Assembly: GCA_902592265.1 (NCBI GenBank)
Contig: CACJDV010000006.1
Span: forward strand, 1-60,883
Reading direction: 5' to 3'
Origin: an uncultured Pelagibacteraceae bacterium
Lineage (GTDB): Bacteria; Pseudomonadota; Alphaproteobacteria; Pelagibacterales; Pelagibacteraceae
Length of the DNA stretch: 60,883 bases
In this document: one piece after another, positions 3,319 through 54,905 of the stretch
Numbering within the stretch: position 1 is the stretch's first letter
How the letters are laid out: the number at the start of each line of letters is the position of its first letter
Position numbers and translations under genes: made by a program
Notes under the pieces: generated by a model
What the model saw: the letters and a program-made list of their open reading frames with translations, nothing else
Database searches by the model: none
Told to the model about the DNA's origin: nothing

Positions 3319-4415
3319 TTTGAATTCTTTAACTCAGACACTTTTTTTTCAACCTCGCTTACCACCTTATCAATCATATCGTTGGTTAAAACTTTTTCTG
3401 ACTGTATCCCAGATAAATAAAGCATATTATTTCCTTTTTTACCTCCAGTTATGCCTATATCAGTTTGGGCTGCCTCTCCAGGACCATTAACCACACAACC
3501 AATTACAGATAAGGTAATTGGAGTTTTTATATGCGAAAGCTTTTTTTCAAGTATTTTTACAGTTTCAATTACTTCAAAGCCTTGTCTTGCACAAGAGGGA
3601 CAGGAAATAATTTTCACTCCTCTCTCTCTTAAACTTAAAGATTTTAGTATTTCATTTCCAATTTTGACTTCCTCAACAGGGTTATCTGATAAAGAAATTC
3701 TTATGGTGTCGCCAATACCCTCTAAAAGTAATGTCCCTAGCCCAATAGAAGATTTTACACTTCCTGGGATGAAGCCTCCCGCCTCTGTAATTCCTAAATG
3801 CAGTGGATAATCAGTTGATTTTGACAATTGTCTATATGCTTCTACCGATAAAAAAACATCTGATGACTTGACGCTTACCTTTAAATTTTGAAAGTTTTCA
3901 TCTTCCAGTATCTTGATATTTCTTAGAGCACTTTCAACTAATGCTTCTGGACAAGGTTCTTTATATTTTTCTAAAATATCTTTCTCTAAAGATCCAGCAT
4001 TAACTCCCACTCTTATTGAGCAATTATTATCAACTGCAGCTTTAACAACTTCTTTAATTTTATCTTTATTTCCAATATTTCCAGGATTTATTCTTAGACA
4101 GCTTGCACCATTTTCGGCAGCCTCAATTGCTCTTTTATAGTGGAAATGAATATCAGCAACTATGGGTATATCAACATGTTTAATTATTTCTTTCAATGCT
4201 TTGGATGATGGCTCGTCAGGACAAGAAACTCTAACTATATCAGCTCCCTCAGAGCTAATTTCATTTATTTGATTAATTGTAGCTTTTATGTCTGTTGTGA
4301 GAGTATTAGTCATTGATTGCACTGATATTGGATTTCCTCCTCCAACTTTTACTTTACCTACATTAATTTCTCTCGTTTCTCTTCTTTTTATGTTTCTAAA
4401 AGGTCTTATGTTCAT
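3315..4415 (-). CDS. ispG: 4-hydroxy-3-methylbut-2-enyl diphosphate synthase
   Basis: Iron-sulfur enzyme of the MEP isoprenoid pathway, converting MEcPP to HMBPP. 366 residues, the usual bacterial length. The [4Fe-4S] ligands are visible as C272 and C275 (SCPSC) and C307 (GCVVNGPGE), with the catalytic glutamate just after the last cysteine. The N-terminal TIM-barrel part begins with the family motif [11 protein letters not shown] at 28-38. The gene sits between lysC and prfA with four-base overlaps on each side, indicating one transcript. Confidence 0.97.
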
Positions 4416-5632
4416 TTTTTTTGATCTAATTTAAATTCTTTATGAAGAGCAATCAAAGCTTTTTGTGTATTTTTTTTATCAATTAAAACTGAAATTTTAA
4501 TTTCAGAAGTTGAAATTACTTTAATATTTATTTTTTTGTTTGCAAGTGATTGAAACATTCTAAATGTAACTCCAGGGGTAGTTATCATACCTACTCCAAT
4601 CACTGAAATTTTAGATACTCCCTTTTCAAAAAATAATTTTCTGTAATTAATAGTTTTGTTTTGTTGAATAATTTTTTTGGTTTTATTCAAGTCATCTGAT
4701 TTAATTGTAAATGTTAAGTCTGTTTCTTTTCCATTAGCAGAAATATTTTGCACAACCATATCAACATTTATCAAATTTTTAGATAATGGTTTAAAAATTG
4801 CTGCAGCAACGCCGGGTTTATCCTTCACACCTATAAGAGAAACTTTTGAGTCATTTTGGGTTGAGGAAATTCCAGTAACAATTTTATTATTTACGATCTT
4901 GGATCTTTTGGTGATTAATGTTCCTGACTTTTTAGAAAAAGATGATTTCACCTCGATATCAATCCTGTTTAATCTTGCATCTTGTATTGAAACTGGCTGC
5001 ATAACTTTTGCGCCCAATGATGCCATCTCTAACATTTCTTCATAAGAAATTACCTTAATCTTTTTTGCATTTTTTAATTTGTTAGGATCAGTTGTGTACA
5101 CTCCTTCTACATCAGTATAGATTATACATTTCTGTGCTTTAAAAAACTTTGCAATCATAATTGCACTTGCATCAGATCCGCCCCTTCCTATAGTTGTAAT
5201 TCTATTTTCATCATTTAGTCCTTGAAACCCAGTGACTATTGGTATGCCACCTTTTTTTAAATATTTTATAATATTGCTTTTATTTATTTGATTTATCCTC
5301 GAGTTTTTATATTTTCCTATTGTCAAAATTGGAATTTGCCAAGATAACCAAGATCTAGATTCATAGCCCTCATGAATTAATCTTCCAGCTATTAAGGAAC
5401 ACGCAACTTGTTCGCCTGAAGAAACTAAAATATCATATTCCGACTCTGAAAAATTATCACTTATTTCAAAAGATTTTTTTATTAACTCATTAGTCGCACC
5501 ACTCATGGCAGATGAGACAACAATAACTTTGTAGTTTTTCTTTTTATAATCAATGATTATTTTGGCAACTTTTTTTATCTTTTTGATAGTGCCAACTGAT
5601 GTACCCCCAAATTTTAATACGACAATTTTCAT
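4412..5632 (-). CDS. lysC: Aspartate kinase
   Basis: First enzyme of the aspartate family pathway (lysine, threonine, methionine, diaminopimelate), phosphorylating aspartate. 406 residues: an amino-acid kinase domain (1 to about 245) opening with KFGGTSVG at 7-14 and containing GRGGSDASA, followed by two ACT regulatory domains (about 265-400) that normally bind lysine and/or threonine. It begins the minus-strand operon; the next gene outward is ubiG, divergent, with 68 nt of shared upstream DNA. lysC upstream of prfA and beside ubiG is a common alphaproteobacterial arrangement. Confidence 0.96.
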
Positions 5633-5700
5633 GATAAAATAATCTTTTAAATTTAAAAAATATTGAATAAATACATGTTGAATATAAAGTCAACTTACAA

Positions 5701-6429
5701 ATGAAAAATAACACAATTAACAAAAAAGAAATAGAAAAATTTTCTAAAATTGCCGAGGAATGGTGGAATCCTGAAGGTAAATTTAAACCATTACATAAAT
5801 TTAACCCTATAAGAATTTCATATATTAAAGAAAATATTATTGAAACATTCAAATTAGAGAATAAAAAAAAACCATTACAAAATATTAAGATTTTGGATGT
5901 CGGTTGTGGAGGAGGATTGCTATCAGAGCCTATGAGTAGGTTGGGTGCAGAAGTTACTGGAATTGATGCCTCAGACAAAAATATTAGTGTTGCAAAAATC
6001 CATTCAAAAAAAAATAATCTTAAAATTAATTACTTTTGTTCATCTCCCGAAAATTTAAAAATTAAAGAAAAGTTTGATGTAATCTTGAACATGGAGATAG
6101 TAGAGCATGTCGAAGATGTAAATTTTTTTTTGAAATCATGCAATAATCTTTTAAAAAGTAATGGCATAATGTTCGTAGCGACTTTAAATAAGACTTTAAA
6201 ATCTTATATTTTTGCTATTGTAGGTGCAGAGTACATTTTACGTTGGCTTCCGATTGGAACTCATGAGTGGGAAAAATTTTTAAAACCTGAAGAATTAATT
6301 TCAATTCAAAAAGAGAATAATTTTAAATTAGACCGAATTGATGGAATGAGTTTTAATATCTTAAAAGATAAGTGGAGTTTAAGTGATGATAAATCCATTA
6401 ACTACATCACAAAATTTATTAAAAATTAA
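5701..6429 (+). CDS. ubiG: Ubiquinone biosynthesis O-methyltransferase UbiG
   Basis: SAM-dependent enzyme carrying out both O-methylations of ubiquinone biosynthesis. 242 residues. Motif I reads LDVGCGGGLLSEP and is followed by the acidic motif II (VTGIDAS). The N-terminal part holds the UbiG signature EEWWNPEGKFKPLH. The late region GTHEWEKFLKPEEL is also typical of the family. The gene is a single plus-strand unit divergent from lysC; its last four bases overlap the convergent DUF1178 gene. Confidence 0.96.
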   Translation: MKNNTINKKEIEKFSKIAEEWWNPEGKFKPLHKFNPIRISYIKENIIETFKLENKKKPLQNIKILDVGCGGGLLSEPMSRLGAEVTGIDASDKNISVAKIHSKKNNLKINYFCSSPENLKIKEKFDVILNMEIVEHVEDVNFFLKSCNNLLKSNGIMFVATLNKTLKSYIFAIVGAEYILRWLPIGTHEWEKFLKPEELISIQKENNFKLDRIDGMSFNILKDKWSLSDDKSINYITKFIKN

Positions 6430-6857
6430 TTATTTTTATTCTCAACCCACGGTATCAAATGAGTATCAATACCCTCTTCTTTAAGTTCTTTAATATCTTG
6501 ATTAGATGCCGTTCCATAAATACCTTTATCTCTTTTTTTATTATTATAATGAATTGATCTTGCTTCATATGCAAAATTTTCACCAACATAATCAAAATTA
6601 CTTTTAATAAATTTTTGATATTTATTTATTGTTTTTTTTATTTGTTGATACTTATGAATATTTTTTTTCTCATCTTTAAGATTTATAGTTTTATTTATCA
6701 GTTTAGGGGCCATTAAATTTTTTTCCACCAGAAACGATTCACAACTATGACAATTAACTAATCTTTTTTTTTTTAGTTTATCGAACTCTTTAGATGATGC
6801 AAACCAGCTATCAAATATAAGATTGCATTTTTTACATCGTAGATTGTATTTTATCAT
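6426..6857 (-). CDS. DUF1178 family protein
   Basis: 143-residue protein of an uncharacterised alpha/betaproteobacterial family. The N-terminus carries a zinc-ribbon-like region with CKKC at about 8-11 and CHSC at about 36-39, typical of the family. The rest is Lys-rich, with a conserved block around YEARSIHYNN and a C-terminal PWVENK-type end. It overlaps ubiG at the 3' end by four bases. No function is known; metal binding is inferred from the two CxxC pairs. Confidence 0.82.
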   Translation of the reverse strand: MIKYNLRCKKCNLIFDSWFASSKEFDKLKKKRLVNCHSCESFLVEKNLMAPKLINKTINLKDEKKNIHKYQQIKKTINKYQKFIKSNFDYVGENFAYEARSIHYNNKKRDKGIYGTASNQDIKELKEEGIDTHLIPWVENKNN

Positions 6858-6896
6858 GTAGTCTATATAGTAATTTATATATATAAATTCAACACG

Positions 6897-7016
6897 CTAG
6901 CTCCTGTAATCTGAATTAATATCTATATATTCTTTAGTAAAATCCATAGTGTATACAGTGAAGTTTTTTTTTCCATTTCCAATATCAACACTAATATCAA
7001 TAGCAGAACTTTTCAT
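6897..7016 (-). pseudogene. Remnant of ArgJ C-terminus (39 codons)
   Basis: An open frame of 39 codons starts with ATG at 7016, sharing one base with the thiD stop (TAATG), and ends with TAG at 6897. Its translation matches only the last beta-chain residues of ArgJ (glutamate N-acetyltransferase): ISVDIGNG, then VYTMDFTKEYIDINSDYRS, which ends in the near-invariant DYRS terminus. The catalytic threonine and the rest of the roughly 400-residue enzyme are absent and do not occur in the neighbouring thiD gene. The best reading is a gene relic left by rearrangement that still has an intact coupled frame. Whether it is translated is unknown. Confidence 0.75.
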
Positions 7017-7828
7017 TATTTGTATATTTTTTTTAACTCAATTGAATTTAAATGATTTATCGGACCATGTCCTATACCAATTTTAGGGTTTGTTAATATT
7101 GCAGAATTTACATATGTAACTCCTAACTCACAAGATCTCTTTAGAGTTTTTCCACATGAAAAAAAAGAGGTAATTGCAGTTGATAGTGTACAGCCTGTAC
7201 CATGAGTATTTTTAGTATTAAATCTTCTACTTGAAAATACTTTAATCTCTTTTTTATTGACAAATATATCATGTACTTTTTTTGTTTTTAAATGACCTCC
7301 TTTTACTAGCACATTTGGTACACCCAGTTTTATGAATTCATTTGCAGCAAGGATCATATCATTTTGATTTTTTATTTTTATACCAGTCAATATTTCAGCT
7401 TCAGGAATATTGGGTGTAATTAAAGAGACTTTGTTTAATAATTTATTTTTCATCAATTTTACAGCTGAATCGGTTATAAGCTTAGAGCCACCTTTGGCAA
7501 TCATCACTGGGTCTAAAATAATCTTTTTAACTTTCATTTCATTCAATGATCTTAATACCTTGTCTATTACTCTTGTAGAATGAAGCATTCCAATTTTTAT
7601 AGCATTGGGCTTTATATCTTTAATTGTGTGAATTATCTGATTATAAATTTCATTTGGTGGAACAGGTATCACTGATTTCACACTTTTTGTATTTTGGACT
7701 GTAACTGCGGTTACAGCCGTCATAGAATATACACCTAGACTCGTTGCAGTTTTAATATCTGCCTGAATGCCTGCACCTCCTGATGAGTCAGATCCTGCTA
7801 TGATTAAAATTTTTGATTTTATTTTCAA
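7016..7828 (-). CDS. thiD: HMP/HMP-phosphate kinase ThiD
   Basis: Phosphorylates 4-amino-5-hydroxymethyl-2-methylpyrimidine (HMP) and HMP-P for thiamin synthesis. 270 residues of the ribokinase fold. The N-terminal motif AGSDSSGGAGIQAD and the C-terminal anion-hole motif THGTGCTLS are intact. It sits directly after glmM (one base between). SAR11 is known to lack ThiC and to import the pyrimidine precursor, so ThiD is the expected salvage step. No TPP riboswitch precedes it, since it lies inside an operon. Confidence 0.95.
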   Translation of the reverse strand: MKIKSKILIIAGSDSSGGAGIQADIKTATSLGVYSMTAVTAVTVQNTKSVKSVIPVPPNEIYNQIIHTIKDIKPNAIKIGMLHSTRVIDKVLRSLNEMKVKKIILDPVMIAKGGSKLITDSAVKLMKNKLLNKVSLITPNIPEAEILTGIKIKNQNDMILAANEFIKLGVPNVLVKGGHLKTKKVHDIFVNKKEIKVFSSRRFNTKNTHGTGCTLSTAITSFFSCGKTLKRSCELGVTYVNSAILTNPKIGIGHGPINHLNSIELKKIYK

Positions 7829-7829
7829 A

Positions 7830-9161
7830 TTATCTAATTTTTTTCAAAATTATATTAACACATTTAACAAGAAGTCTTTTATTTTCACTTTCTCCCATAA
7901 TTCTTATTTTTGACTCTGTTCCCGATTTTCTTACAAGAATTCTGCCACTTCCTTTTATTAATTTTGAAGCCAGTTTAATAGATTTTTTTATTTCAGGTTT
8001 ATTAATTATATTTTTATTTTTTACTTCAATATTTTTAAGCAATTGTGGTGTTTTCTTGAATTTTTCAAAAAATTCACTGGCTCTTGTTCCCTTTCTAAGA
8101 GCAAATAAAGACTCCAGGGCTACAAGTAAACCATCTCCTGTAGTTGCAAATTTACCTAGAATAATATGTCCTGATTGTTCTCCACCTAAATTAAACTTAT
8201 TTTTTTGCATTACCTCTTTTACGTATCTGTCACCAACATTAGCACGTATAAATTTTATTCCTTTTTTTTTAAAATACTTTTCAAGACCATAGTTAGACAT
8301 TAGTGTTCCAACTACCCCACCTTTTAACATTTTTTTATTTTTCCACCTTGTTGCTAATGCAGCAATAATTTGGTCACCATCTATAATATTACTTTTTTCA
8401 TCACACATAATTATCCTATCTGCATCACCATCTAGTGAAATACCTATATGAGCCTTATACTTTTTAACTGTAGATTTTATTTTTTCAGGAAATGTAGAAC
8501 CACAATTTTTGTTAATATTTAATCCATTAGGATTAACTCCTATTGCAATCACCTTAGCTCCCAAAGATTTTAATAATTCTGGTCCAGCTTTGTACCCTGC
8601 TCCATTTGCACAATCAATTACAATTCTAAGACCTCTTAGATTGAATTCTTTGGTAAAATTTTTTTTTAATATTTTGATGTAATCATTTGTACCTGTCTCT
8701 AATCTTTTTACTCTACCTAATTTTTCTGGTTTAGAAAGATTTTTGACGATTTTTTTATCTATTAAACTTTCAATTTTTTTTTCTATTTTATCTGATAGTT
8801 TCATACCATCAGGTCCAAATAGTTTTAATCCATTATCATTGTGAGGATTATGAGAAGCTGTAATCATAATTCCCATATTTGCCCTCATAGCTTTTGTGAG
8901 CATCGCTAAACCATTTGTGGGTAAAGGTCCTAAAGTATATACATGCATCCCTGCTGATGCCAATCCAGATACAAGTGCTGGTTCTAAAGTGTATCCGGAT
9001 AATCTAGTATCTTTTGCTATTATTGCGGTTTGTTTTCTTTTTTTTTGAGATTTAAAATATGTTCCACTTGCTAAGCCAAATTTAAAAAACATGTCTCCAT
9101 TAATATTTTCACTATTGATAGCTCCCCTAATACCATCGGTTCCAAAATATTTTTTTGCCAT
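7830..9161 (-). CDS. glmM: Phosphoglucosamine mutase
   Basis: Interconverts glucosamine-6-P and glucosamine-1-P for UDP-GlcNAc, feeding peptidoglycan and LPS. 443 residues. The phosphoserine loop TASHNPHND has the active serine at 103; the magnesium loop is DGDADR at 244-249; the C-terminal phosphate-binding loop reads RKSGTESKIR. The start codon overlaps the folP stop by one base. Order ftsH-folP-glmM is widely conserved. Confidence 0.97.
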   Translation of the reverse strand: MAKKYFGTDGIRGAINSENINGDMFFKFGLASGTYFKSQKKRKQTAIIAKDTRLSGYTLEPALVSGLASAGMHVYTLGPLPTNGLAMLTKAMRANMGIMITASHNPHNDNGLKLFGPDGMKLSDKIEKKIESLIDKKIVKNLSKPEKLGRVKRLETGTNDYIKILKKNFTKEFNLRGLRIVIDCANGAGYKAGPELLKSLGAKVIAIGVNPNGLNINKNCGSTFPEKIKSTVKKYKAHIGISLDGDADRIIMCDEKSNIIDGDQIIAALATRWKNKKMLKGGVVGTLMSNYGLEKYFKKKGIKFIRANVGDRYVKEVMQKNKFNLGGEQSGHIILGKFATTGDGLLVALESLFALRKGTRASEFFEKFKKTPQLLKNIEVKNKNIINKPEIKKSIKLASKLIKGSGRILVRKSGTESKIRIMGESENKRLLVKCVNIILKKIR

Positions 9162-33225: not shown

Positions 33226-33336
33226 CTATAACAAGAAAATTGCCATTAAAACTAAAACTACAACAACAGCGACAGTTCCCCACAGAACAAACTTAGTAAA
33301 ATTATTCCAAGTGTTCTTATGGTCTTCGTTATCCAT
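33226..33336 (-). CDS. aa3-type cytochrome c oxidase subunit IV-like peptide
   Basis: 36-residue single-pass membrane protein. The hydrophilic start MDNEDHKNTWNNFTKF is followed by one transmembrane helix (about 17-36) rich in Val and Leu. The pattern H-x-x-TW-x-x-F-x-K matches the bacterial aa3 subunit IV family (COX4_pro_2), which in alphaproteobacteria often lies beside pntAA. Seven bases after rpmJ and nine before pntAA. It is not near the ctaC/D/E genes. Confidence 0.72.
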   Translation of the reverse strand: MDNEDHKNTWNNFTKFVLWGTVAVVVVLVLMAIFLL

Positions 33337-33343
33337 GAAAAAG

Positions 33344-33482: not shown

Positions 33483-33598
33483 TGCTGGCAACGACCTACT
33501 CTTCCATGTCTTAAGACAAAGTACCATCGGCGCTGAAAGGCTTGACTTCCGAGTTCGGGATGGGATCGGGTATAACACTTTCGCAATAATTGCCAGCA
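33483..33598 (-). rRNA. rrf: 5S ribosomal RNA
   Basis: About 116 nt on the minus strand. Terminal stem: the 5' end TGCTGGCA pairs with TGCCAGCA at the 3' end. Internal blocks CCCATCCCGAACTCGGAAGT, GCGCCGATGGTA and GGAAGAGTAGGTCG are the universal 5S signatures. No 23S gene adjoins it: the upstream side is the glycan island, so it must be transcribed from its own promoter. The AT-rich DNA at 33600-33660 has several -10-like hexamers, but none is convincing. Confidence 0.96.
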
Positions 33599-44818: not shown

Positions 44819-45481
44819 ATGATAAGTAAAATAATAAATTTCTCCGTATATCTTTTGAGGTATTTTTCTATATTAAGGACAAAATATGAAGTTTCTAGAG
44901 AAATTAATTTTGGATCGAGCCAGGCAAACAACTTTTTTAAAAAACATTTAAAAAAATGCAAATTTTACTTAGAATATGGGTCAGGGAATAGCACTCTTCT
45001 CGCGGTAAGTTACAAAAAAAGATTTATCTCTATTGAGAGTGATCGGAGTTTTTATAACTATATTAGAATAAACAAAAAGATAAATGATATTACATATATA
45101 GATATTGGACCGACCAAGTATTTTTCTTACCCCATTTTACCATTTTGTTTTATAGAAAAAAAAATTACAAATTATAGTAATTATATTAAAAAAATATTTT
45201 TTGAAAACAAATTAATTCCAGACTTAATCTTAATAGATGGACGATTTAGAGTTAATGTATGTCTTAATATTATTAAATTTTTAATTAAGAATAAAATAAA
45301 AAAAAATATACTTATAATAATTGACGACTACAAATTTAGGAAAAACTATAAAATTTTAAATAAGTTTTTTAAAATCACAAATGAAGGAAGATTTGGTGTT
45401 ATTAGATATAATGATTACAAGAAAATTTCTCTTAAAAATATCGATAACTACTTACTTAAATCAAAAATAGATTATTTATAA
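44819..45481 (+). CDS. Class I SAM-methyltransferase-like protein
   Basis: 220 residues with a Rossmann-type motif FYLEYGSGNSTLLAV, an acidic strand end FISIESD, and the DLILIDGRFRVNVCL block seen in a family of island methyltransferase-like proteins. The target is unknown; a sugar or lipid modification is inferred from context. Last six bases overlap the convergent acyltransferase gene. Confidence 0.68.
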   Translation: MISKIINFSVYLLRYFSILRTKYEVSREINFGSSQANNFFKKHLKKCKFYLEYGSGNSTLLAVSYKKRFISIESDRSFYNYIRINKKINDITYIDIGPTKYFSYPILPFCFIEKKITNYSNYIKKIFFENKLIPDLILIDGRFRVNVCLNIIKFLIKNKIKKNILIIIDDYKFRKNYKILNKFFKITNEGRFGVIRYNDYKKISLKNIDNYLLKSKIDYL

Positions 45482-46498
45482 ATATTTTGGATTAATTTTT
45501 TTAATATTTTTCATGTACCAAGAGACTACAATTTTTTTCATTGGTGTCTCAATAAATTTAAATGAACAAATTGCCATTAATAATGTTGATATAATTGCAA
45601 TTATTACAGAAAGATTTTCAGCTCCAAGTTTATTAATTTCTCTTATAATTATAATTCCAATACTATGATGTAATAAGTACCATGAAAAAGATATTAAACC
45701 AATTTTTGAAATAAGACTGAGCCTAAAATTTAACTTTAACTTAAGGACTAACCAAATTAAAAAAACTATAAGAATAAATGGTAACTCATAACCATTAAAT
45801 CTTTCATTAACTATGATATTAATTATTACAAATAAAATTGTAAGAAAGTACATTAATAATTTTTTTTCTTTCAAACTAAAAATTATCAAACCAACTAAAA
45901 ACCAATTTGCATGAGGAGAAATAGATGTAATGGTTACGAATATATTATCATCAAATAATATAACTATATTTAAAAAGATTGAAAATATCACCCAAGTTAT
46001 AATAGATTTATTAAGATTCTTAAAAAAAAAATATATTATTCCAAAAAAAATATAAAATTTTAACTCAACAATTAACATCCAATAAACACCATCTATATAT
46101 TTAAAATTTAATCCCGGAACAAAATTAGCAAATATTAAATTCATAAATCCCGTGTACCAATCCACCTCTCGACCTGGAAGATCAAATAAACTATAAAAAG
46201 TAAGAGTTATAAGAGCACAAAATACGTAAGCAGGATAAATTCGAGCAAATCTTCTCATTAAAAATTCAATATAATTTTGTGATTGAAAAATAGTCATTGC
46301 TATACAGTATCCACTTAAAATAAAAAATATATCTACACCTACCCAAAGATGTTTTGAAATACCTGATGTCCAATTGTCAGACCTAAATAGATAATCTGGA
46401 GAATAATGAGCTGTGTAATGATACAAAACAATAAAAATAATTGCTACACCTCTAAGTAAGTCAATATTTTCAATTCTTTCTTTATTTTTTGATAACAT
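45476..46498 (-). CDS. Acyltransferase family 3 (OafA-like)
   Basis: Membrane O-acyltransferase that typically adds acetyl groups to surface sugars. 340 residues with about ten helices. The N-terminal signature IENIDLLRGVAIIFIVLYHY carries the catalytic histidine after the RG pair, followed by WVGVDIFFILSGYCIA. C-terminal HHSIGIIIIREI. No SGNH domain is attached. Divergent from the next operon with 52 nt between. Confidence 0.92.
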   Translation of the reverse strand: MLSKNKERIENIDLLRGVAIIFIVLYHYTAHYSPDYLFRSDNWTSGISKHLWVGVDIFFILSGYCIAMTIFQSQNYIEFLMRRFARIYPAYVFCALITLTFYSLFDLPGREVDWYTGFMNLIFANFVPGLNFKYIDGVYWMLIVELKFYIFFGIIYFFFKNLNKSIITWVIFSIFLNIVILFDDNIFVTITSISPHANWFLVGLIIFSLKEKKLLMYFLTILFVIINIIVNERFNGYELPFILIVFLIWLVLKLKLNFRLSLISKIGLISFSWYLLHHSIGIIIIREINKLGAENLSVIIAIISTLLMAICSFKFIETPMKKIVVSWYMKNIKKINPKYL

Positions 46499-46550: not shown

Positions 46551-46835
46551 ATGGATTTTTATAAAAAACTTTTTTTAGGAACTTTGACAATTGTTGTAGC
46601 AATAATATTAATCATAAAATTTTCATTATCTTCAATAGAAAATAGAATAATTGAAATTACAAAATCTGAAAAATTTTATAATTTTATAAGTCAAAGATTT
46701 AAGTATGAAATGAATAGACATTCTTCAAAAGAATTAACCCAAGAAGAAATTAACTTTTACACTATTGAATTAAATAAAATACTTTCAAAATGGAAACCTG
46801 TAATAGATAGGTTAAATGTTGAAAATATCAAATAA
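46551..46835 (+). CDS. Small single-pass membrane protein, unknown
   Basis: 94 residues: one N-terminal transmembrane segment (about 7-27) followed by a charged, helical tail with KSEKFYNFISQRFKYEMNR. Not recognised as any family. Its stop shares a base with the start of the 512-aa GT-C gene, and it opens the eight-gene branched-sugar operon, so it may act with that membrane enzyme. It is not a four-helix GtrA flippase. Confidence 0.7.
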   Translation: MDFYKKLFLGTLTIVVAIILIIKFSLSSIENRIIEITKSEKFYNFISQRFKYEMNRHSSKELTQEEINFYTIELNKILSKWKPVIDRLNVENIK

Positions 46836-48373
46836 TGAAGACTGCAAATATAGACAATTATAAAATAATTGTTATCGCTATTTCGTTATTCTCTTTTTTA
46901 ATTTCAGTTTGGCAGTCTCCATATGTTTATGATGCCCATCATTGGGGTCTTGTGGCATCTAATGCTTATGACCTATTAAACAACAAAATACCCTATAAAG
47001 AAATATTCATTCAATATGGAATATTTACAACATTATTACATTCAGTTTTCATGAAAATAGGAAGTCAAAGTGTAATTTCAATCTTTTTTTTCACATCTGT
47101 TATCTATTCGATTTCAATATATTTTTTTTTTTTAATTGTTAAAAATAAATTTAAAGATCAATTAGCTTTATTTGCTGTATTATGTTTAGTTTTAATTCAT
47201 CCCTTTGTAAATCACCCATGGCATAATTATTTAACATTTTTTTTCTTAATTTTATCAATTTTTTGTTTAGAGAAAAATATTGATAAATATTATTTTATTT
47301 CAGGTTTTTTGTTTGGTTTAGCTGTATTATCATACGAAAAATTTTTAGTCGTATTTCTACTATTTTTTATAAGCTATGCTTTAATTAATCTTAAAAATAA
47401 AAAAATTAAAGATGTATTTTTTTTATCAATTGGTTTTTTTATTCCGATAATAATATTTTTTTTATACATCAATCATAATCAAATATTTTTTGATTGGATA
47501 AAGTATCATTCTATAAGCGATCTTTATATTGGTGATAATTATATAATTGTTGTACTAAGTTTTTTAAAAAATTTACTATATAATGGAGTCAAAAATTTTA
47601 TTTTTGAACCATATTGGATATTTTTTTTAATTTTAATAGTTCTTAATTTAGCTTTTTTATATATTTTTTTATTTAATAAAAATCTTGTAAAAAAAGAAGA
47701 TGAATATCTAGTATATATTTCAATGTTATCGCTTGGCTCATTTTCATCAGCTATTCACTCATTAAATAGTTTTAGGCTGGCGACAGGAGCATTTATTGGA
47801 ATCTTTATACTAATATTTTTTCTTAACAAAATTAAGAATACTGAAACACAAAAAATTATCTCATTTAGCATAATTATAATTCTTTGTTTAGGTATAAATT
47901 TTAAAAAAAGTGAAAATAATAAACTTTATGTGACGCCTGTTTCATTTGAACATATTACAAATAATGAAATAAAATTTTTCAAACATTTAAAATTTAAGAA
48001 AGATACATGGAACCACACCCTTTTTTTCAACAAAAAAATAAATGAAATAAAAGAAAAATGCATAAATGTAAATTATGCAATTAATTATACTAATAATACC
48101 TATTACTATTTATTAATCTCAGATTTTTTTAGAACTTTTCAAATTAAGCCATGGATTAATTCAAAAAGTACTTTAGACAAGCAAACAATGAGTCTCATTA
48201 ATCCTAATTTTGAGTCTAATTTGAAAAAACGGATAAAAAAAAATCAAACACTTATTGTTGCTGATTTGTCCTTCCAAGTTCCTGAGAATTATAGCTACAT
48301 TAAACTGCCTTATTCATATGAGAATAAATTTAAAAGAATTTTAGTTCCTAAAAGATGTATAGATAAAATATGA
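46835..48373 (+). CDS. GT-C-type membrane glycosyltransferase candidate
   Basis: 512 residues with about eleven membrane helices and a soluble C-terminal region from about 355. After the first helix the loop holds PYVYDAHHWG (D33, H35, H36), placed like the acidic catalytic motif of GT-C enzymes (PMT/ArnT/Gtr type). Second gene in the operon, coupled on both sides (one- and four-base overlaps). Likely transfers a prenyl-phosphate-linked sugar in the periplasm; the proposed donor comes from the GtrB-like protein at the operon end. Confidence 0.65.
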   Translation: MKTANIDNYKIIVIAISLFSFLISVWQSPYVYDAHHWGLVASNAYDLLNNKIPYKEIFIQYGIFTTLLHSVFMKIGSQSVISIFFFTSVIYSISIYFFFLIVKNKFKDQLALFAVLCLVLIHPFVNHPWHNYLTFFFLILSIFCLEKNIDKYYFISGFLFGLAVLSYEKFLVVFLLFFISYALINLKNKKIKDVFFLSIGFFIPIIIFFLYINHNQIFFDWIKYHSISDLYIGDNYIIVVLSFLKNLLYNGVKNFIFEPYWIFFLILIVLNLAFLYIFLFNKNLVKKEDEYLVYISMLSLGSFSSAIHSLNSFRLATGAFIGIFILIFFLNKIKNTETQKIISFSIIIILCLGINFKKSENNKLYVTPVSFEHITNNEIKFFKHLKFKKDTWNHTLFFNKKINEIKEKCINVNYAINYTNNTYYYLLISDFFRTFQIKPWINSKSTLDKQTMSLINPNFESNLKKRIKKNQTLIVADLSFQVPENYSYIKLPYSYENKFKRILVPKRCIDKI

Positions 48374-49146
48374 AAACATTTATTCTATGTGGTGGATTTG
48401 GTACACGTTTGGATTATGAGGGTAAGTTAAAAGCAAAACCAATGGTAAAAATTGGATCCAAACCAATTCTAATTTATATTGTTGAAAATTTTGTTTTTCA
48501 GGGTTTTAATGAATTTATATTTTGTCTTGGTCATAAATCTGAAACTATAAAAAATTACTTTTTAAAAGAAAAAAAAAAGTACGTCAAAATTTTGAGTAAA
48601 AATAAAGATAATCTTAAATTTCAGTTTGAAAATAAGCGAATAAAGTTTATTGGAAATTTAGTTTATACAGGGTTAAATACTGGAACTGGGGGTAGAATTA
48701 AAGTTGCATATAAATCTTTAAAACTAAATGAAGATATAATGATGACTTATGGGGATGGTCTCTCAAGTGTAAATATTAAAAATTTAATAAAATTTCACTA
48801 TAAAAATAAATCATCAGTAACACTAACAGCAGTAAAACCTAAACACAGATATGGTATTATCAAATTAAAAAAAAACAATATTGAAAAATTTGATAATGAA
48901 AATAAGAGCATTGATGTTTTTGTTAATGGAGGATTTTTTGTAATAGATAAATCGGCTATACAAAAAATAAAAAATAATAATACATATTGGGAGAAAGAAC
49001 CTTTAAGTTATTATCTGAGAAAAAAAAAGTTATTTGCATTTAAACACAAGGGATTTTGGAAAAGTTTAGATACTATGAAAGATAAAAATGATTTTGATAA
49101 CCTTATTAAACAAAATAAAAAACCATGGATAGTAAAGAGAAATTAA
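48370..49146 (+). CDS. rfbF: Glucose-1-phosphate cytidylyltransferase
   Basis: Makes CDP-glucose from CTP and glucose-1-P, the entry to CDP-3,6-dideoxyhexoses. 258 residues. N-terminal nucleotidyl motif LCGGFGTRL at about 6-14, then KPMVKIGSKPIL, TGLNTGTGGRI and MMTYGDGLS. These are the cytidylyltransferase versions of the family motifs. Followed by rfbG with a 22-nt overlap. Confidence 0.94.
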   Translation: MKTFILCGGFGTRLDYEGKLKAKPMVKIGSKPILIYIVENFVFQGFNEFIFCLGHKSETIKNYFLKEKKKYVKILSKNKDNLKFQFENKRIKFIGNLVYTGLNTGTGGRIKVAYKSLKLNEDIMMTYGDGLSSVNIKNLIKFHYKNKSSVTLTAVKPKHRYGIIKLKKNNIEKFDNENKSIDVFVNGGFFVIDKSAIQKIKNNNTYWEKEPLSYYLRKKKLFAFKHKGFWKSLDTMKDKNDFDNLIKQNKKPWIVKRN

Positions 49147-50198
49147 AAAAGTTTTGGAGAAATAAAAAAGTTTTTATTACTGGTCATACCGGATTTAAAG
49201 GAAGCTGGATGTCAATACTGTTAAACATGTTAGGGGCAAATATTTACGGGTATTCGCTCAAACCAAATAAAAAATCTTTATTTAACCAGGCTAATTGTAA
49301 ATATTTTTTAGAAGAAAATTTTTATGGTAATATTAACAATTTCAATAATTTAAAAAAAAAACTTAAAAAAACAAAGCCCAATATTTTGTTTCATTTAGCA
49401 GCTCAACCTCTAGTAAGTAAATCTTTTAGTGACCCTCTTGAAACATTTCAGACTAATATTATCGGTACTGCTAACGTATTAAATGCGATAAGAAATATAC
49501 CTTCTCTAAAATCTATTGTAATTATTACCACTGATAAAGTTTACAAAATTAAAAATTCTAATCGAAATTATAAAGAATTTAATGAATTGGGAGGTAAAGA
49601 TCCTTACAGTGTTTCAAAAGTTTGTGCTGAACACTTAACAATTTCTTTTATTGAGTCTTTCTATAAAAATAAAAATATTAGAAATAAAATTTCAACAGCT
49701 AGATCTGGGAATGTTATTGGTGGTGGAGATTATTCAAAAAATAGACTGCTACCAGACATAATAAACTCTATAAATAATAAAAAAAAGATGATAATTCGAA
49801 ATCCTAATAGTGTCAGACCATGGCAACACGTTATAGAACCAACTTTAGGATATTTGAAGTTAGCAGAATTACAATACAAGAAAAAGCGATTGCATAAGGA
49901 TCAGAATTGGAATTTTGGACCTAATAAAAAAAGCTTTGTAAAAGTAATTGATATTTTGAAAATTGTAAAAAAAAGATACAAAGTAAAAATTAAAATCAAA
50001 AAAAACAAAGATTTTTTTGAGACAAATATTTTGAAATTAGACAACAATAAAGCTAAAAAAAATTTGAACTGGCGTCCTAATTGGAATTTGCAGAAAAGTA
50101 TAGATAGTGTTATGGGGTGGAATGATGAGTTTAGAAAAAATAAAAATGCCAAAAAAATTAGTGAACATCAAATAAATAATTATTTTAATAAAAAATGA
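49125..50198 (+). CDS. rfbG: CDP-glucose 4,6-dehydratase
   Basis: Forms CDP-4-keto-6-deoxyglucose. 357 residues, an extended short-chain dehydrogenase. The NAD motif VFITGHTGFKGSWMS at 16-30 is diagnostic for this enzyme; ITTDKVYK and the YSVSK catalytic Y-x3-K follow, then RSGNVIGGGDY and RPWQHVIEP. Coupled to rfbF and to the next gene by overlaps of 22 and 4 nt. Confidence 0.95.
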   Translation: MDSKEKLKKFWRNKKVFITGHTGFKGSWMSILLNMLGANIYGYSLKPNKKSLFNQANCKYFLEENFYGNINNFNNLKKKLKKTKPNILFHLAAQPLVSKSFSDPLETFQTNIIGTANVLNAIRNIPSLKSIVIITTDKVYKIKNSNRNYKEFNELGGKDPYSVSKVCAEHLTISFIESFYKNKNIRNKISTARSGNVIGGGDYSKNRLLPDIINSINNKKKMIIRNPNSVRPWQHVIEPTLGYLKLAELQYKKKRLHKDQNWNFGPNKKSFVKVIDILKIVKKRYKVKIKIKKNKDFFETNILKLDNNKAKKNLNWRPNWNLQKSIDSVMGWNDEFRKNKNAKKISEHQINNYFNKK

Positions 50199-51382
50199 AA
50201 ATAACATACGGAAAAAACGTTTACGGCAAAGAAGAAATTAAAGCTGTTTTAAACCAATTAGGAAAAACAACACAAATGGGCAAGTCTGTAACTAATTTTG
50301 AAAGTAAAATTGCTAAACTATTTTCAAAGAAATACGGGGTTATGGTAAACTCTGGATCTTCAGCACTTACTCTGGCTACAAATGTTTTAAATTTAAAAAA
50401 AGGTGATGAAGTAATAACTCCATGTTTAAATTTTGGGACAGCCGTGTCTTCTATAATGTTATCAGGAGCCCAGCCAATTTTAGCTGATATAGATATTGAT
50501 ACATTGCAAATTAATATCAATGAGTTTCAAAAAAAAATAACAAAAAAAACTAAGGTAATAATGGTTCCAAATTTAATTGGTAATATTCCTAATTGGAAAA
50601 AAATAAAGCAAATAGCTAATAGATACAATTTAAAGATAATTGAAGATTCTGCTGACACGCTAGGTGCAACAATAGATAAAAAACCAACTGGAATTTATAG
50701 CGACATATCAATAACTAGCTTCTACGGATCTCATATAATCAGTTGTGCAGGAAATGGTGGAATGTTTATGACAAATGACAAAAAACTTTACGAAAAAGCA
50801 AAAGTTTTAAGGAGTTGGGGAAGAATGTCTACACTTATAAAAGACTCAGAGAATATTAATAAAAGATTAAATATTAAATTAAGTGGCATTGAATATGATA
50901 AAAAATTTGTTTTTTCGGAAGTTGGGTATAATTTTGAACCCTCTGAAATAGGTGCATCTTTTGGTCTTATTCAATTACAGAAATTTAAAAAATTTAATAA
51001 AATTAGAAATTATAATTTTAATCTTCATCTAAATTTTTTTAATAAACACAAAGAATTTTTCATAGTTCCAAAAATTAATAAAAATGTAAAAACTAATTTT
51101 TTAGCTTACCCAATAATAATTAGAAAAAATAAAAATTTTGATAGAAAAAAACTACAAATTTATTTAGAGAAATATAATATTCAAACTAGACCAATTTTTT
51201 CTGGTAACATATTAAGACACCCAGCATTTAAAATAATTATTAATAATAAGAATAAACTTCGATCATTTAAAAATGCTGACTACATTATGAAATATGGAAT
51301 CTTAATTGGATGTCATCAAGGTTTAAATTATAAAAAAATAAAATATATCCACACAAAAATTTTGAATTTAATTAATAAATGA
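50195..51382 (+). CDS. rfbH: CDP-4-keto-6-deoxyglucose 3-dehydratase-like (RfbH/ColD type)
   Basis: PLP/PMP enzyme of the DegT fold predicted to remove the 3-hydroxyl from CDP-4-keto-6-deoxyglucose. 395 residues. The Schiff-base lysine is replaced by H180 (SFYGSHIIS), the hallmark of the deoxygenating enzymes E1 (RfbH/AscC) and ColD. Only three cysteines exist (77, 184, 373); the E1 [2Fe-2S] ligands expected after RSWGR (206-210) are missing, so it may work without the E3 reductase, as ColD does. No E3 gene is seen in the window. Confidence 0.82.
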   Translation: MKITYGKNVYGKEEIKAVLNQLGKTTQMGKSVTNFESKIAKLFSKKYGVMVNSGSSALTLATNVLNLKKGDEVITPCLNFGTAVSSIMLSGAQPILADIDIDTLQININEFQKKITKKTKVIMVPNLIGNIPNWKKIKQIANRYNLKIIEDSADTLGATIDKKPTGIYSDISITSFYGSHIISCAGNGGMFMTNDKKLYEKAKVLRSWGRMSTLIKDSENINKRLNIKLSGIEYDKKFVFSEVGYNFEPSEIGASFGLIQLQKFKKFNKIRNYNFNLHLNFFNKHKEFFIVPKINKNVKTNFLAYPIIIRKNKNFDRKKLQIYLEKYNIQTRPIFSGNILRHPAFKIIINNKNKLRSFKNADYIMKYGILIGCHQGLNYKKIKYIHTKILNLINK

Positions 51383-53139
51383 AAAAAAAAAACCAAATAA
51401 TGTTGTCTGATTATGTTTTAAGTTTTTTAAGAAATAAAAATGTTAAACATGTCCCCTTGTTAATTGGAGGTGCGATTTCATTTATGGTTGATGCATTCTC
51501 AAGAAATAAGAAAATTAAATACATAGCTGTTGCAAATGAACAGTCGGCTGCGATGATTGCTGACGCCTACTCAAGATCAGGAGCAGGATATTCATGCACA
51601 ATGGCAACATCTGGTCCGGGCGCAACTAATCTTCTTACTGGAATTGCTTGCTCATATTTTGACTCGATACCTTCGATGCATATTTGCGGCCAAGTTAACA
51701 CATATGAGCAACAAGGATTTCACAAGAGCACGAAAAAAGTAAGGCAAGTAGGTTTTCAAGAGACTGATATTGTTAATATGGCAAAACCAATTACAAAGTT
51801 TTCATATAAATTAAATAGACCTGAGGAAATTAAATACATTCTAGAAAAAGCCTATTATATTTCAACAACAGGTCGACCTGGTCCTGTATTAATTGATATA
51901 CCTATGAATTTTCAAAAAATGTTAATTAATCCAAAAAAACTTAGATCGTTCAATCAACCAAAAAATAAATTATTACACTTAGAAAATAAGATTAGAAAAT
52001 TTAAATCCTTTCTCCAAAAATCAAAAAAACCAGTGATTATATTGGGTGGAGGCATCAAGTGTAGTAACTCTCAAAATCAACTTAATATTTTTCTAAAAAA
52101 AACTCAAATTCCAATAGTTGCTACGTGGAGTGGTGTCGATTTAATTGATCATAAAGATTATAGGTATGTAGGTAATATCGGGGTATACGGCAACAGATCT
52201 GCTAACATCGTTGTACAAAATGCAGATTTAATTTTATCTCTAGGATCTAGACTTGATACAAGAGTAACTGGTGGTAAACCAGAAACCTTTGCTAAAAATG
52301 CAAAAAAAATTATTATTGATATTGACAACTACGAATTATCAAAACAAAGAGGCTTAAAAGTAGACCTTAAGTTAAATTATAATTTAAATGATTTGCTAAA
52401 AGAGCTTAATAAATACAATATAAAAATAACACGAAATGATTGGTTAAAAAAATCAATGAACTTAAATCATTTATTTAAATTTCCAGAATTTAAGAAAAAA
52501 TTAAGTAAAAGAGTTAATCCCTACCTATTTGTGAATGAATTATCTAATGTGCTTAATAAAAATAGCATAATCATTGGTGATACTGGATCTCATTTAACAT
52601 GGTTAATGCAAGACTTTAAAATAAAATATGGTCAAATAATGTTTTCTGCTTTTGGAAATTCCCCAATGGGCTATGCACTTCCAGCAAGTATAGGAGCGCA
52701 AATAATTAATAAAAAAAAGAAAGTCATCGCCTTTAACGGAGATGGTAGTATTCAATTAAATATACAAGAACTTCAAACACTCAGTAAGTTAAATTTACCA
52801 ATTAAAATCATTATTATGAACAATCATGGTTATGGAATAATTCAACAATTTCAGGACTTGTATCTCAACAAAAGACATGAAGCCTCAAATCGTGTTGTTT
52901 CCAATCCAAATTTTAAATTTTTAAGTAAAGCTTTCAAAATTAATTACAATTTCATTAAAAAAAATAATGATATAAAAAAAATAAAAAAAATAATTAACTC
53001 TAATAAAGCAGAGATAATTGAGGTAGATATTGAAGATAAAGAAAAAATTATTCCTAAATTAGAATTTGGAAAACCCATAGACAATCTTTCTCCACAAATA
53101 AATTTAAATTCGATAAAAAATTACTTATCTACAAGTTAG
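51379..53139 (+). CDS. ThDP-dependent acetolactate synthase-like enzyme (YerE-like)
   Basis: 586 residues with the three-domain ThDP layout: PYR domain with the activating glutamate E54 (VANEQSAAMIADAY), central Rossmann domain (about 200-340) with LGGGIKCS and LSLGSRLDTR, and PP domain with NGDGSIQLNIQEL (GDG at 454-456) and the closing NN at 481-482. Between a CDP-sugar 3-deoxygenase and a reductase, it fits YerE, which adds a pyruvate-derived two-carbon unit to C4 of CDP-3,6-dideoxy-4-ketoglucose in Yersinia yersiniose synthesis. Catabolic or anabolic acetolactate synthase is less likely here since no ilvN/C genes adjoin. Confidence 0.8.
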   Translation: MKKKNQIMLSDYVLSFLRNKNVKHVPLLIGGAISFMVDAFSRNKKIKYIAVANEQSAAMIADAYSRSGAGYSCTMATSGPGATNLLTGIACSYFDSIPSMHICGQVNTYEQQGFHKSTKKVRQVGFQETDIVNMAKPITKFSYKLNRPEEIKYILEKAYYISTTGRPGPVLIDIPMNFQKMLINPKKLRSFNQPKNKLLHLENKIRKFKSFLQKSKKPVIILGGGIKCSNSQNQLNIFLKKTQIPIVATWSGVDLIDHKDYRYVGNIGVYGNRSANIVVQNADLILSLGSRLDTRVTGGKPETFAKNAKKIIIDIDNYELSKQRGLKVDLKLNYNLNDLLKELNKYNIKITRNDWLKKSMNLNHLFKFPEFKKKLSKRVNPYLFVNELSNVLNKNSIIIGDTGSHLTWLMQDFKIKYGQIMFSAFGNSPMGYALPASIGAQIINKKKKVIAFNGDGSIQLNIQELQTLSKLNLPIKIIIMNNHGYGIIQQFQDLYLNKRHEASNRVVSNPNFKFLSKAFKINYNFIKKNNDIKKIKKIINSNKAEIIEVDIEDKEKIIPKLEFGKPIDNLSPQINLNSIKNYLSTS

Positions 53140-53146
53140 GAAAATC

Positions 53147-53977
53147 TTGAAAAAAATAATAATTGTTGGTAGTTCGGGTTTTGTTGGAAGAAGTTTAAAT
53201 AATTTTTTAAATAAAAAAAATTATAAAATAATTAACTTTTCGAGATCAAACAAAAAAGATATTCTTAAAGTAAAAAAGTTACCAAAATCTAATTATATTA
53301 TTTATTGTGTTAAAACTAATGATATTAAAAAAAGCTTACATTTATTTAAACATTTTGAGAATTTACTAAAAAATTACTCTAAAAGAATAAAAATTTTATT
53401 TTTTAGTTCAGGATCAGTTTATGGCCCAAGATTTCAAATAAAAAAATTTAAAGAAACCGACAAAGTTTCATTAAAAAAAATAAATAATTTTAATAATTAT
53501 AAAAAAAATTATGCTAAAGAAAAAATTTATCTTGAAAAAGAATTTATAAAATTATCGAAGGAGGGATTTAAAGTGTCGATTGTGAGAGGCTTTGCTTTTT
53601 ATGGAAAATATATATTAAAATACAATTACTTAATTTCTGAAATTATTAAAGCAATTAAAACTAAAAGAAAACTATCAATCCAGAATAAAACTTTTAGAAG
53701 TTATATGCATGCGAATGATATGTGTAGATGGTTATTAAAAATTGTTAAAAATTCATCAATAAAATGCCCTATTTATAATCTTGGATCAGATAAAAAAATT
53801 GATTTATACAAATTAATTAAATTTTTAAATAAAAAATATAAATCTAAAATATTTATTAAAAATAAAGAAAATAAAAAAGTTGATTTTTATATTCCCTCTA
53901 TAAATTTGGCTAAAAGTCGACTAAAATTAAAAAATACAATAAAATTTGAAAATGCTATAAATTCCTTAATAAAATAA
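53147..53977 (+). CDS. SDR epimerase/reductase (YerF-like)
   Basis: 276 residues, extended SDR. NAD(P) motif IVGSSGFVGRS at the N-terminus; catalytic Y-x3-K in NYAKEK. Starts with TTG at 53147; an AGG overlapping the preceding stop codon (53138-53140) serves as SD. In the yersiniose pathway YerF reduces the carbonyl left by YerE; position right after the YerE-like gene suggests that role. Sequence alone would also permit an epimerase. Confidence 0.75.
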   Translation: MKKIIIVGSSGFVGRSLNNFLNKKNYKIINFSRSNKKDILKVKKLPKSNYIIYCVKTNDIKKSLHLFKHFENLLKNYSKRIKILFFSSGSVYGPRFQIKKFKETDKVSLKKINNFNNYKKNYAKEKIYLEKEFIKLSKEGFKVSIVRGFAFYGKYILKYNYLISEIIKAIKTKRKLSIQNKTFRSYMHANDMCRWLLKIVKNSSIKCPIYNLGSDKKIDLYKLIKFLNKKYKSKIFIKNKENKKVDFYIPSINLAKSRLKLKNTIKFENAINSLIK

Positions 53978-53978
53978 T

Positions 53979-54905
53979 ATGAAAATTTCTGTTGTTACAC
54001 CTACTTATAATGAATTTGATAATATTGGTAAAATATATGATGAAATAAAAAAGAAATTTAAAGAAATTAATTGTGAATATGAGCATTTAATTATTGATAA
54101 TAACTCCTCTGATGGAACTATAAATAAAATTAAAGAATTAGCACTAAAAGATAAAAATCTTAAAATCATTATTAATTCAAAAAATTATGGTCATATTAGA
54201 TCTCCATTTTACGCTTTATTACAGTGTAATTCTGATGCAACAATATTAATGGCAGCAGATTTTCAAGATCCTATAGATTTAATACCGCAATACATTGAGG
54301 AGTGGAAGAATGGAAATAAAATAGTCCTTGGTGAAAAAATATCATCTGAAGAAAATAAAATAAAATATAATATAAGAACTCTATTTTATAATTTTCTAAA
54401 TAAAATTTCGGAATTTGAATTACCCAAAAACACTACAGGCTCAGGAATCTTCGATAAAACTGTCATAGAAAAACTAAAAAAAATTAATGATCCTTATCCT
54501 TATTTTAGGGGATTGATTACTGAATTAGGTGAAGATATTAAAACACTCAAATTTAAACAGCCTTTAAGGAAAGCAGGAAAAACAAAAAATAATATACTCA
54601 CCTTGTATGATATTGGAATGCTGGGAATAATAAAACATTCAAGAAAACCTTTGAGATTTATGGTTTTGCTTGGTTTCATTCTCAGCGCAGTTAGCTTCTT
54701 TATTGGAATATTTTATTTGATTTATAAATTGATCTATTGGGAGTCTTTTGATCTAGGAATCGCCCCTTTAGTGATTGGAATATTTATATTAAGCTCAATT
54801 CAAATCACTTTGTTGGGCCTTGTTGGTGAATACATAGGAATAATTTTATTACATCAAAGGAACATTCCTTTAGTACATGAAAAAGAGCGAATAAACTTTG
54901 AATAA
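53979..54905 (+). CDS. GtrB/ArnC-like polyprenyl-phosphate glycosyltransferase
   Basis: 308 residues: N-terminal GT2 domain (VVTPTYNEFDNIGK, IIDNNSSDGT, metal motif in AADFQDP) and two C-terminal membrane helices (about 226-250 and 262-286) ending in GLVGEYIGIILL. This architecture is that of GtrB, ArnC and DPM1, which transfer a sugar from a nucleotide to undecaprenyl phosphate. As last gene of the branched-sugar operon it is the natural acceptor enzyme for the CDP-sugar made upstream. A weak inverted repeat follows the stop. Confidence 0.88.
   Translation: MKISVVTPTYNEFDNIGKIYDEIKKKFKEINCEYEHLIIDNNSSDGTINKIKELALKDKNLKIIINSKNYGHIRSPFYALLQCNSDATILMAADFQDPIDLIPQYIEEWKNGNKIVLGEKISSEENKIKYNIRTLFYNFLNKISEFELPKNTTGSGIFDKTVIEKLKKINDPYPYFRGLITELGEDIKTLKFKQPLRKAGKTKNNILTLYDIGMLGIIKHSRKPLRFMVLLGFILSAVSFFIGIFYLIYKLIYWESFDLGIAPLVIGIFILSSIQITLLGLVGEYIGIILLHQRNIPLVHEKERINFE

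Follow-up and report, generated by a model that had tools for sequence, protein, structure and literature searches.

The operon and the pathway it may encode

We analyzed a 60,883-nucleotide (nt) stretch of DNA from an uncultured Pelagibacteraceae bacterium (contig CACJDV010000006.1; hereafter the window) and focused on an operon at 46551-54905, which is predicted to make a branched sugar linked to cytidine diphosphate (CDP) and to load it onto a lipid carrier. The operon has eight open reading frames (ORFs), all on the plus strand, with neighbor spacings of -1, -4, -22, -4, -4, +7 and +1 nt, in agreement with the eight genes with overlaps or short gaps reported in the initial annotation. The first gene (46551-46835) encodes a 94-amino-acid (aa) protein that has one transmembrane (TM) segment and matches no Pfam or NCBIfam family. 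The second (46835-48373) encodes a candidate GT-C glycosyltransferase of 512 aa with eight TM segments, which matches PMT_2 at 39.6 bits (cut-off 26.1); all TM counts come from a simple hydropathy script. Three genes of the CDP-sugar type follow. The product of 48370-49146 is a divergent RfbF-like glucose-1-phosphate cytidylyltransferase (TIGR02623, 237.6 bits, below the cut-off of 300), whose best relative in the PDB is 1tzf (182 bits). RfbG, a CDP-glucose 4,6-dehydratase (49125-50198), is above its NCBIfam cut-off (TIGR02622, 419.7 bits against 278), and the next protein (50195-51382), a divergent RfbH-like nucleotide-sugar 3-dehydratase, is below its own (DegT/RfbH-like model, 285 bits against 423). 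The remaining genes encode a YerE-like thiamine diphosphate (ThDP) lyase (51379-53139), a reductase of the short-chain dehydrogenase/reductase (SDR) or epimerase type in the place of YerF (53147-53977, TTG start; PF01370, NAD-dependent epimerase/dehydratase) and a polyprenyl-phosphate family 2 glycosyltransferase (GT2) resembling GtrB and PgfS, with two C-terminal TM segments (53979-54905; PF00535). The SDR has no PDB relative at E<=0.001. The nearest NCBIfam model of the GT2 is PgfS (149 bits, below the cut-off of 500), with ArnC also matching; Synechocystis sll0501 (5ekp) aligns along its full length at 126 bits, and the ArnC structure aligns as well.

We propose, with a probability of roughly 0.6, that the genes from 48370 to 54905 make a CDP-linked, C4-branched 3,6-dideoxyhexose and load it onto undecaprenyl phosphate. 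We infer every reaction, donor and linkage from gene content and order, protein families, residues, phylogeny and co-localization. RfbF would produce CDP-glucose, and RfbG would convert it to a CDP-4-keto-6-deoxy sugar. The RfbH-like enzyme, which is free of the iron-sulfur (Fe-S) cysteines of E1, would remove the 3-hydroxyl by ColD-type chemistry on pyridoxamine 5'-phosphate (PMP), with glutamate regenerating the cofactor and no E3 reductase involved. The YerE-like enzyme would place a two-carbon unit from pyruvate on the C4 ketone, and the SDR would reduce the side-chain ketone to give a yersiniose-type sugar, which the GT2 would transfer to undecaprenyl phosphate. The lipid-linked sugar would then be turned to the periplasmic side by a flippase, and a GT-C enzyme, perhaps the one at 46835-48373 together with the 94-aa protein, would add the sugar to the O-chain in the periplasm.

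The enzyme types follow the same sequence as in the CDP-yersiniose pathway of Yersinia (RfbF, RfbG, E1/E3, YerE, YerF), with a YerE-like ThDP lyase here. The operon differs from that pathway in that its 3-dehydratase lacks the [2Fe-2S] cysteines, no FAD_binding_6 protein was found, and a GtrB-like loader is present.

The putative lipid loader and the GT-C pair

The link between the loader and the sugar genes was visible in genome content and in gene neighborhoods. A GT2 profile made from three SAR11-type members (SAR11-type genomes being those of the window's own family, 297 in number) matched 23 of 398 genomes of the phylum at E<=1e-60, and a ThDP-enzyme profile matched 25 of 398 at E<=1e-120. 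We took both searches as the same 398-genome draw and excluded the window's own genome. Among the 397 genomes left, 24 had the ThDP enzyme, 22 had the GT2 and 11 had both, compared with 1.3 expected (Fisher's test, p = 1.5e-9). RfbG lay within 12 kb of 15 of the 26 GT2s that scored at least 215 bits but of only 1 of 38 that scored lower (p = 6e-7), a comparison of high- with low-scoring GT2s and not with the phylum background of RfbG. Leaving out the three profile members gave 13/23. Inside the 44-genome set that supplied the 38 low-scoring cases the figures were 6/15 and 1/38, and 11 further genomes of the phylum gave 9/11. At least one of RfbF, RfbG and RfbH was found within 8 kb of 18 of 30 high-scoring GT2 places (window included) and in the fetched stretch around 18 of the 24 ThDP genes of the phylum, the other six being L083, L084, L087, L088, L092 and L099. 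GT2s of at least 443 bits occurred in 6 of the 297 SAR11-type genomes, each time with RfbH, a ThDP-type enzyme and an SDR nearby. A homolog of the SDR (35-47% identity) precedes the GT2 in L160, L161, L162 and L025.

The gene set itself recurs in other bacteria, although ORF lists from GC-rich genomes may contain wrong frames. In L077, a 606-aa protein with eight TM segments and no Pfam match is followed by RfbF, RfbG, RfbH, the ThDP enzyme, the SDR and the GT2 in the order of the window, and L025 has the last four of these genes. L078 contains RfbF, RfbG, RfbH, SDR, GtrA, GT2 and ThDP genes; in L096, the ThDP gene adjoins the GT2, and GtrA (PF04138) lies 2 kb further. GtrA is also present near the ThDP gene in, for example, genomes G387 and G298. 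In a genome of the same class, one stretch (L128:7506-14700) reads RfbF, RfbG, RfbH, SDR, a weakly GtrA-like ORF (23 bits), GT2 and a 10-TM protein; no ThDP gene or branching enzyme was found in it, and it resembles a simple Gtr operon for a CDP-dideoxyhexose. Thus, the joining of sugar genes to a GT2, for which the initial annotation could name no described system, is not unique to the window. The search for the same gene order recovered the six-gene set, and the set with the GT-C gene in front was seen only in the window. This context gives good support to a GT2 that loads a branched sugar derived from CDP-glucose chemistry onto a lipid.

Several observations weigh against our reading. The 11 genomes with both enzymes belong to six genera, so the cases are not independent, and 4 of the 11 further GT2 genomes are from one genus. 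One of the 24 ThDP matches of the phylum (G458, L099) falls with acetohydroxyacid synthase (AHAS) in the tree described below. Among the 26 high-scoring GT2s, 11 have no RfbG within 12 kb, mostly on contigs free of RfbG. Conversely, RfbG stands beside 4 of the 9 lower-scoring SAR11-type GT2 loci examined (L168, L169, L170 and L172; the nine are from 21 lower-scoring rows), so 215 bits is not a sharp functional border. The fetched stretch of genome G083 (L163), whose GT2 scores 257 bits, contains no genes of this sugar pathway. Finally, GtrA (PF04138) was found in none of the 20 SAR11-type genomes searched.

The GT-C gene gave a different picture. It was found in 5 other genomes of the 297, and a homolog of the 94-aa protein (24-38% identity) is encoded directly upstream in all five, so the two genes stand together in all six cases with the window. 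A Y-D-x-x-H-x-G motif near the first TM segment (Y32, D33, H36, G38) is invariant among the six GT-C rows. No Pfam family was matched at E<=0.01 by the three homologs scanned (L047, L049 and L050), and a single-sequence AlphaFold model of the window protein (predicted local distance difference test score 43) was unusable, so the GT-C fold was not confirmed. All five other genomes lack RfbG at E<=1e-40, which also counts against a tie between the GT-C gene and the sugar genes, and they contain no GT2 of this kind at E<=1e-25 and no match to this ThDP enzyme at E<=1e-100. The GT-C and 94-aa proteins are a pair separate from the six sugar and GT2 genes. The eight genes had been described as one transferable unit that joins CDP-branched-sugar synthesis to a Gtr-like module; the GtrB-like half of that module stands by context and the GT-C half does not, so that a unit of eight is not supported and one of six genes plus two is. 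As a second ground for giving up its proposal, the initial annotation had named a failure of the GT-C and GtrB-like genes to occur with the sugar genes in relatives; this applies by half, to the GT-C gene but not to the GT2. Naming this GT-C as the partner for the branched sugar rests on adjacency.

These results bear on a variant of our proposal in which the sugar genes and the GT2 act as described, another membrane protein is the acceptor-side GT-C enzyme, and a different lipid-linked sugar is the substrate of the 94-aa/GT-C pair. In both L047 and L048, this pair lies in a window-like flank together with a 240-aa GT2, one gene beyond the 94-aa gene, whose nearest model is PpgS (below the cut-off). 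Serotype-specific Gtr proteins work with differing loaders, and by analogy the pair may work with various loaders as well. Other multi-TM proteins are encoded at CDP-sugar loci, namely a DUF6044 protein in L022, a 614-aa protein in L160 and a 528-aa protein in L161. However, these are GT-C-like by TM count only, and no Pfam match was obtained for the multi-TM proteins of L025, L077, L160 (the one of 614 aa) and L161. The GT-C gene of the window, moreover, overlaps rfbF by 4 nt within one operon, and its own genome has no second copy at E<=1e-15. We consider this variant possible, though less likely than not.

A CDP-branched sugar could also be used by a cytoplasmic Leloir transferase to build the O-unit, while the GT2 charges the lipid with another sugar (glucose, for example) on behalf of the GT-C enzyme and the two modules are merely adjacent. 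The independence of the GT-C pair from the sugar genes fits this explanation, as do the other GT1 and GT2 transferases of the surrounding island. The structures related to the GT2 in the PDB (sll0501, ArnC and dolichol-phosphate mannose synthase) fit it too, since no CDP sugar figures in their names. Mere adjacency, however, agrees poorly with a GT2 subfamily that goes with RfbG in other bacteria (15/26 against 1/38) and that has RfbH, a ThDP-type enzyme and an SDR nearby in all six SAR11-type genomes with the highest scores, and we regard it as unlikely.

Under our reading, in which the GT2 loads the branched sugar, the operon resembles three-component periplasmic glycosylation systems (GtrA/GtrB/Gtr and the pentofuranose systems treated in PMC11127046), which likewise have a polyprenyl-phosphate GT2 and a GT-C candidate in one operon. 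It differs in its sugar, predicted to be a CDP-derived branched dideoxyhexose and not UDP-glucose or ribose, and in the absence of GtrA from the SAR11-type genomes searched. The main text of PMC11127046 contains no word beginning with "CDP" or "dideoxy". Among the papers listed by a literature search, which mostly did not extend to subscription papers, none linked a GtrB-type loader with a CDP sugar of the branched or dideoxy kind.

The predicted 3-dehydratase and the ThDP enzyme

The closest structures to the RfbH-like enzyme are E1 (3bcx, 187 bits) and ColD (3b8x, 172 bits), and like both it has a histidine in place of the lysine that binds pyridoxal 5'-phosphate (PLP). Its residues nevertheless show that it is not an ordinary E1. 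We compared 29 genome rows for the C-terminal [2Fe-2S] cysteines and in a tree. All three cysteines are present in 20 E1-type rows, two ColD-like rows have one, and none is present in the window enzyme or in those of L022, L160, L161, L162 and L170; the row from L172 is an unrelated aminotransferase with the lysine and no motif cysteines. The six Fe-S-free proteins also lack a cysteine at the ED-x-C-D position, presumably the fourth cluster ligand. They form one SAR11 clade (support 100) that joins the ColD rows with a value of 93 in the Shimodaira-Hasegawa-like approximate likelihood ratio test (SH-aLRT), on long branches of about three changes per column. The FAD_binding_6 domain, which we take to be the mark of E3, was found in none of nine SAR11-type genomes searched (the window's own, 86% complete, and eight others).

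According to PMC8987622, which also describes the role of the histidine, E3 reduces E1 by way of the Fe-S cluster, and ColD is free of a cluster and has its PMP regenerated with glutamate. Because the catalytic histidine is kept and the Fe-S cysteines of E1 are absent, the sequence suggests that the window enzyme uses ColD-like chemistry on a CDP sugar. Two facts temper this. The Fe-S cysteines are retained in L023 and L025 although FAD_binding_6 is missing from those genomes too, and SpnQ, an Fe-S member of the family, is served by general ferredoxin or flavodoxin reductases (same source); a missing E3 is therefore no proof of ColD chemistry. Nor is the match to ColD, a 3-dehydratase of GDP-4-keto-6-deoxymannose, complete: the catalytic histidine and the lack of Fe-S cysteines are shared, whereas the window enzyme belongs to a CDP-sugar operon and to a clade of its own on a long branch.

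That divergence, with a score below the RfbH cut-off and a long branch beside the ColD-type and E1-type rows, would fit a reading in which the enzyme is not a 3-dehydratase, the 3-hydroxyl stays and the branch is built on a 6-deoxyhexose. We find this improbable, as the histidine replaces the PLP lysine just as in E1 and ColD and the gene occupies the place of RfbH in the operon. As a side observation, the E1-type 3-dehydratase of L093 and that of L095 are each accompanied, within the stretch, by another 3-dehydratase of ColD type (L093:4877-6082 and L095:2595-3764).

The three domains of ThDP enzymes (PF02776, PF00205 and PF02775) are all present in the YerE-like protein. It matched 57 NCBIfam models and is below the cut-offs of all 25 that were listed, and also below that of TIGR00118 (406 bits against 538). 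Among PDB entries, 5ahk scores highest (324 bits, compared with 273 for AHAS I of E. coli). We take 5ahk to be the YerE of P. protegens; its record reads acetolactate synthase II, large subunit. A quick 49-row tree places the window enzyme with 5ahk in a 31-row clade (SH-aLRT 99). A separate 12-row clade (SH-aLRT 99) holds all 10 AHAS rows together with L099 and L172. The initial annotation had named clustering with acetolactate synthases as grounds for abandoning its proposal, and the enzyme does not cluster with them. The likeness to YerE was judged through 5ahk; the YerE and YerF of Yersinia were not in the comparison.

From its sequence, we conclude that the enzyme is YerE-like and distinct from housekeeping AHAS, with a predicted activity on CDP-ketosugars; we reject identity as a plain AHAS on the tree and the cut-offs. 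The best NCBIfam matches are acetolactate synthases, which could point to an additional enzyme of that kind serving the synthesis of branched-chain amino acids. This is very improbable given these results and a separate AHAS above its cut-off in 9 of 10 genomes checked; the window's own genome has a fragment of AHAS, truncated where a contig ends. When genome contigs were scanned with the window's ThDP sequence alone, one distant locus was matched. Further ThDP enzymes occur in SAR11-type genomes in 14 stretches (L026-L039), where an RfbF-like match above 150 bits was found only in L035 and no RfbG-like match above 60 bits was found.

Exchange of the predicted branch-making step and the probable O-chain island

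The branch-making slot is filled by a YerE-type enzyme in the window, L022 and L025. In L160 (genome G256), positions 3588-7927 encode an HpaI-type aldolase, a different YerE-clade enzyme, a DmpG-type 4-hydroxy-2-oxovalerate aldolase and an acetaldehyde dehydrogenase, which looks like a set for a long-branch sugar. L161 (10364-12047) and L162 (1903-3589), from two genomes of one genus, have a split transketolase between RfbH and the SDR-GT2 pair, with Transketolase_N and Transket_pyr encoded as two genes (by domain scan in L161, by similar start positions in L162). The GT2s of the window and L160 are 75% identical although the branch enzymes differ. Thus, the branch step is exchanged for other enzyme sets, and RfbG, RfbH, the SDR and the GT2 stay.

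PMC12247030 reports a preference of ErwE for 4-hydroxy-2-oxo acids and describes transketolases that accept ketones as a proposal that awaits proof. The aldolases of L160 could supply the acids that ErwE prefers, as in ErwE or caryophyllose-type long-branch systems (same source). L160 is, however, a sister cassette, and the window operon has no such aldolases.

We put forward tentatively, at slightly less than even odds, a modular system of SAR11-type bacteria in which a constant core (RfbG, a third and iron-free type of 3-dehydratase, the SDR and a CDP-specific GtrB) is combined with interchangeable carbon-branching enzymes and a variable GT-C enzyme that delivers the sugar to the O-chain. 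Branching would be carried out by a YerE-type decarboxylase, by aldolases with a ThDP enzyme, or by a split transketolase, giving a family of branched dideoxyhexoses linked to undecaprenyl phosphate.

The setting of the operon looks like a surface-glycan island. A divergently oriented neighbor (45476-46498, minus strand) encodes an Acyl_transf_3 membrane acyltransferase (PF01757); an acyltransferase is also found beside the GT-C gene in L047 (PF01757) and, judged by start position, in L048. A 5S rRNA gene lies at 33483-33597 on the minus strand (Rfam, 93.1 bits), and beside it, at 33279-33340 on the same strand, is a member of the pntA small RNA family (RF01810), upstream of transhydrogenase genes. 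GC content in 2-kb windows is 0.20-0.27 from 34001 onward and 0.26-0.34 before, so the operon lies about 13 kb inside a low-GC stretch that starts beside the 5S gene. The island also encodes a Glycos_transf_4 protein, Wzy_C, several GT1 and GT2 enzymes and an acyltransferase. Promoter-like and terminator-like sites were no commoner than in shuffles.

According to PMC11898729, the Pelagibacterales O-chain cluster lies between the 16S-23S operon and the 5S gene, with a GC content near 23.8%. Because of the adjoining 5S gene, the low GC content and the glycan genes of the island, the operon looks to be on the 5S side of such a cluster, whose 16S-23S side is outside the window. The islands are of the same kind, 5S-bounded and low in GC; PMC11898729 counts cluster types, and its main text does not contain CDP, dideoxy, acetolactate, undecaprenyl, GtrB or rfb.

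Searches of mobile elements gave no ThDP-enzyme relative and one partial GT2 relative among viral contigs. Phage records gave 53 ThDP-enzyme matches, all below 60% identity (among the 10 listed, all 5 that carry an annotation read acetolactate synthase), and plasmids gave three at E<=1e-60 with 32-35% identity. These sequence matches give no sign of a phage- or plasmid-borne cassette.

If the proposed pathway is correct, a lipid-phosphate route would be open to C-branched and 3,6-dideoxy sugars, which are familiar from Leloir pathways in the cytoplasm, and there would be an iron-free way to CDP-4-keto-3,6-dideoxyhexose that is independent of E3. As far as our searches show, the modular system would bring two firsts, a CDP sugar branched by a transketolase and a lipid-linked donor for sugars of this class. 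Its transketolase cassette would provide a natural example of the ketone-accepting enzyme that PMC12247030 treats as proposed but not proven. Since related strains swap the enzyme that makes the branch, the cassette may serve to diversify the outer coat by combining interchangeable parts, and it would be a defined source of surface-sugar variety in one of the most abundant bacterial groups of the ocean.

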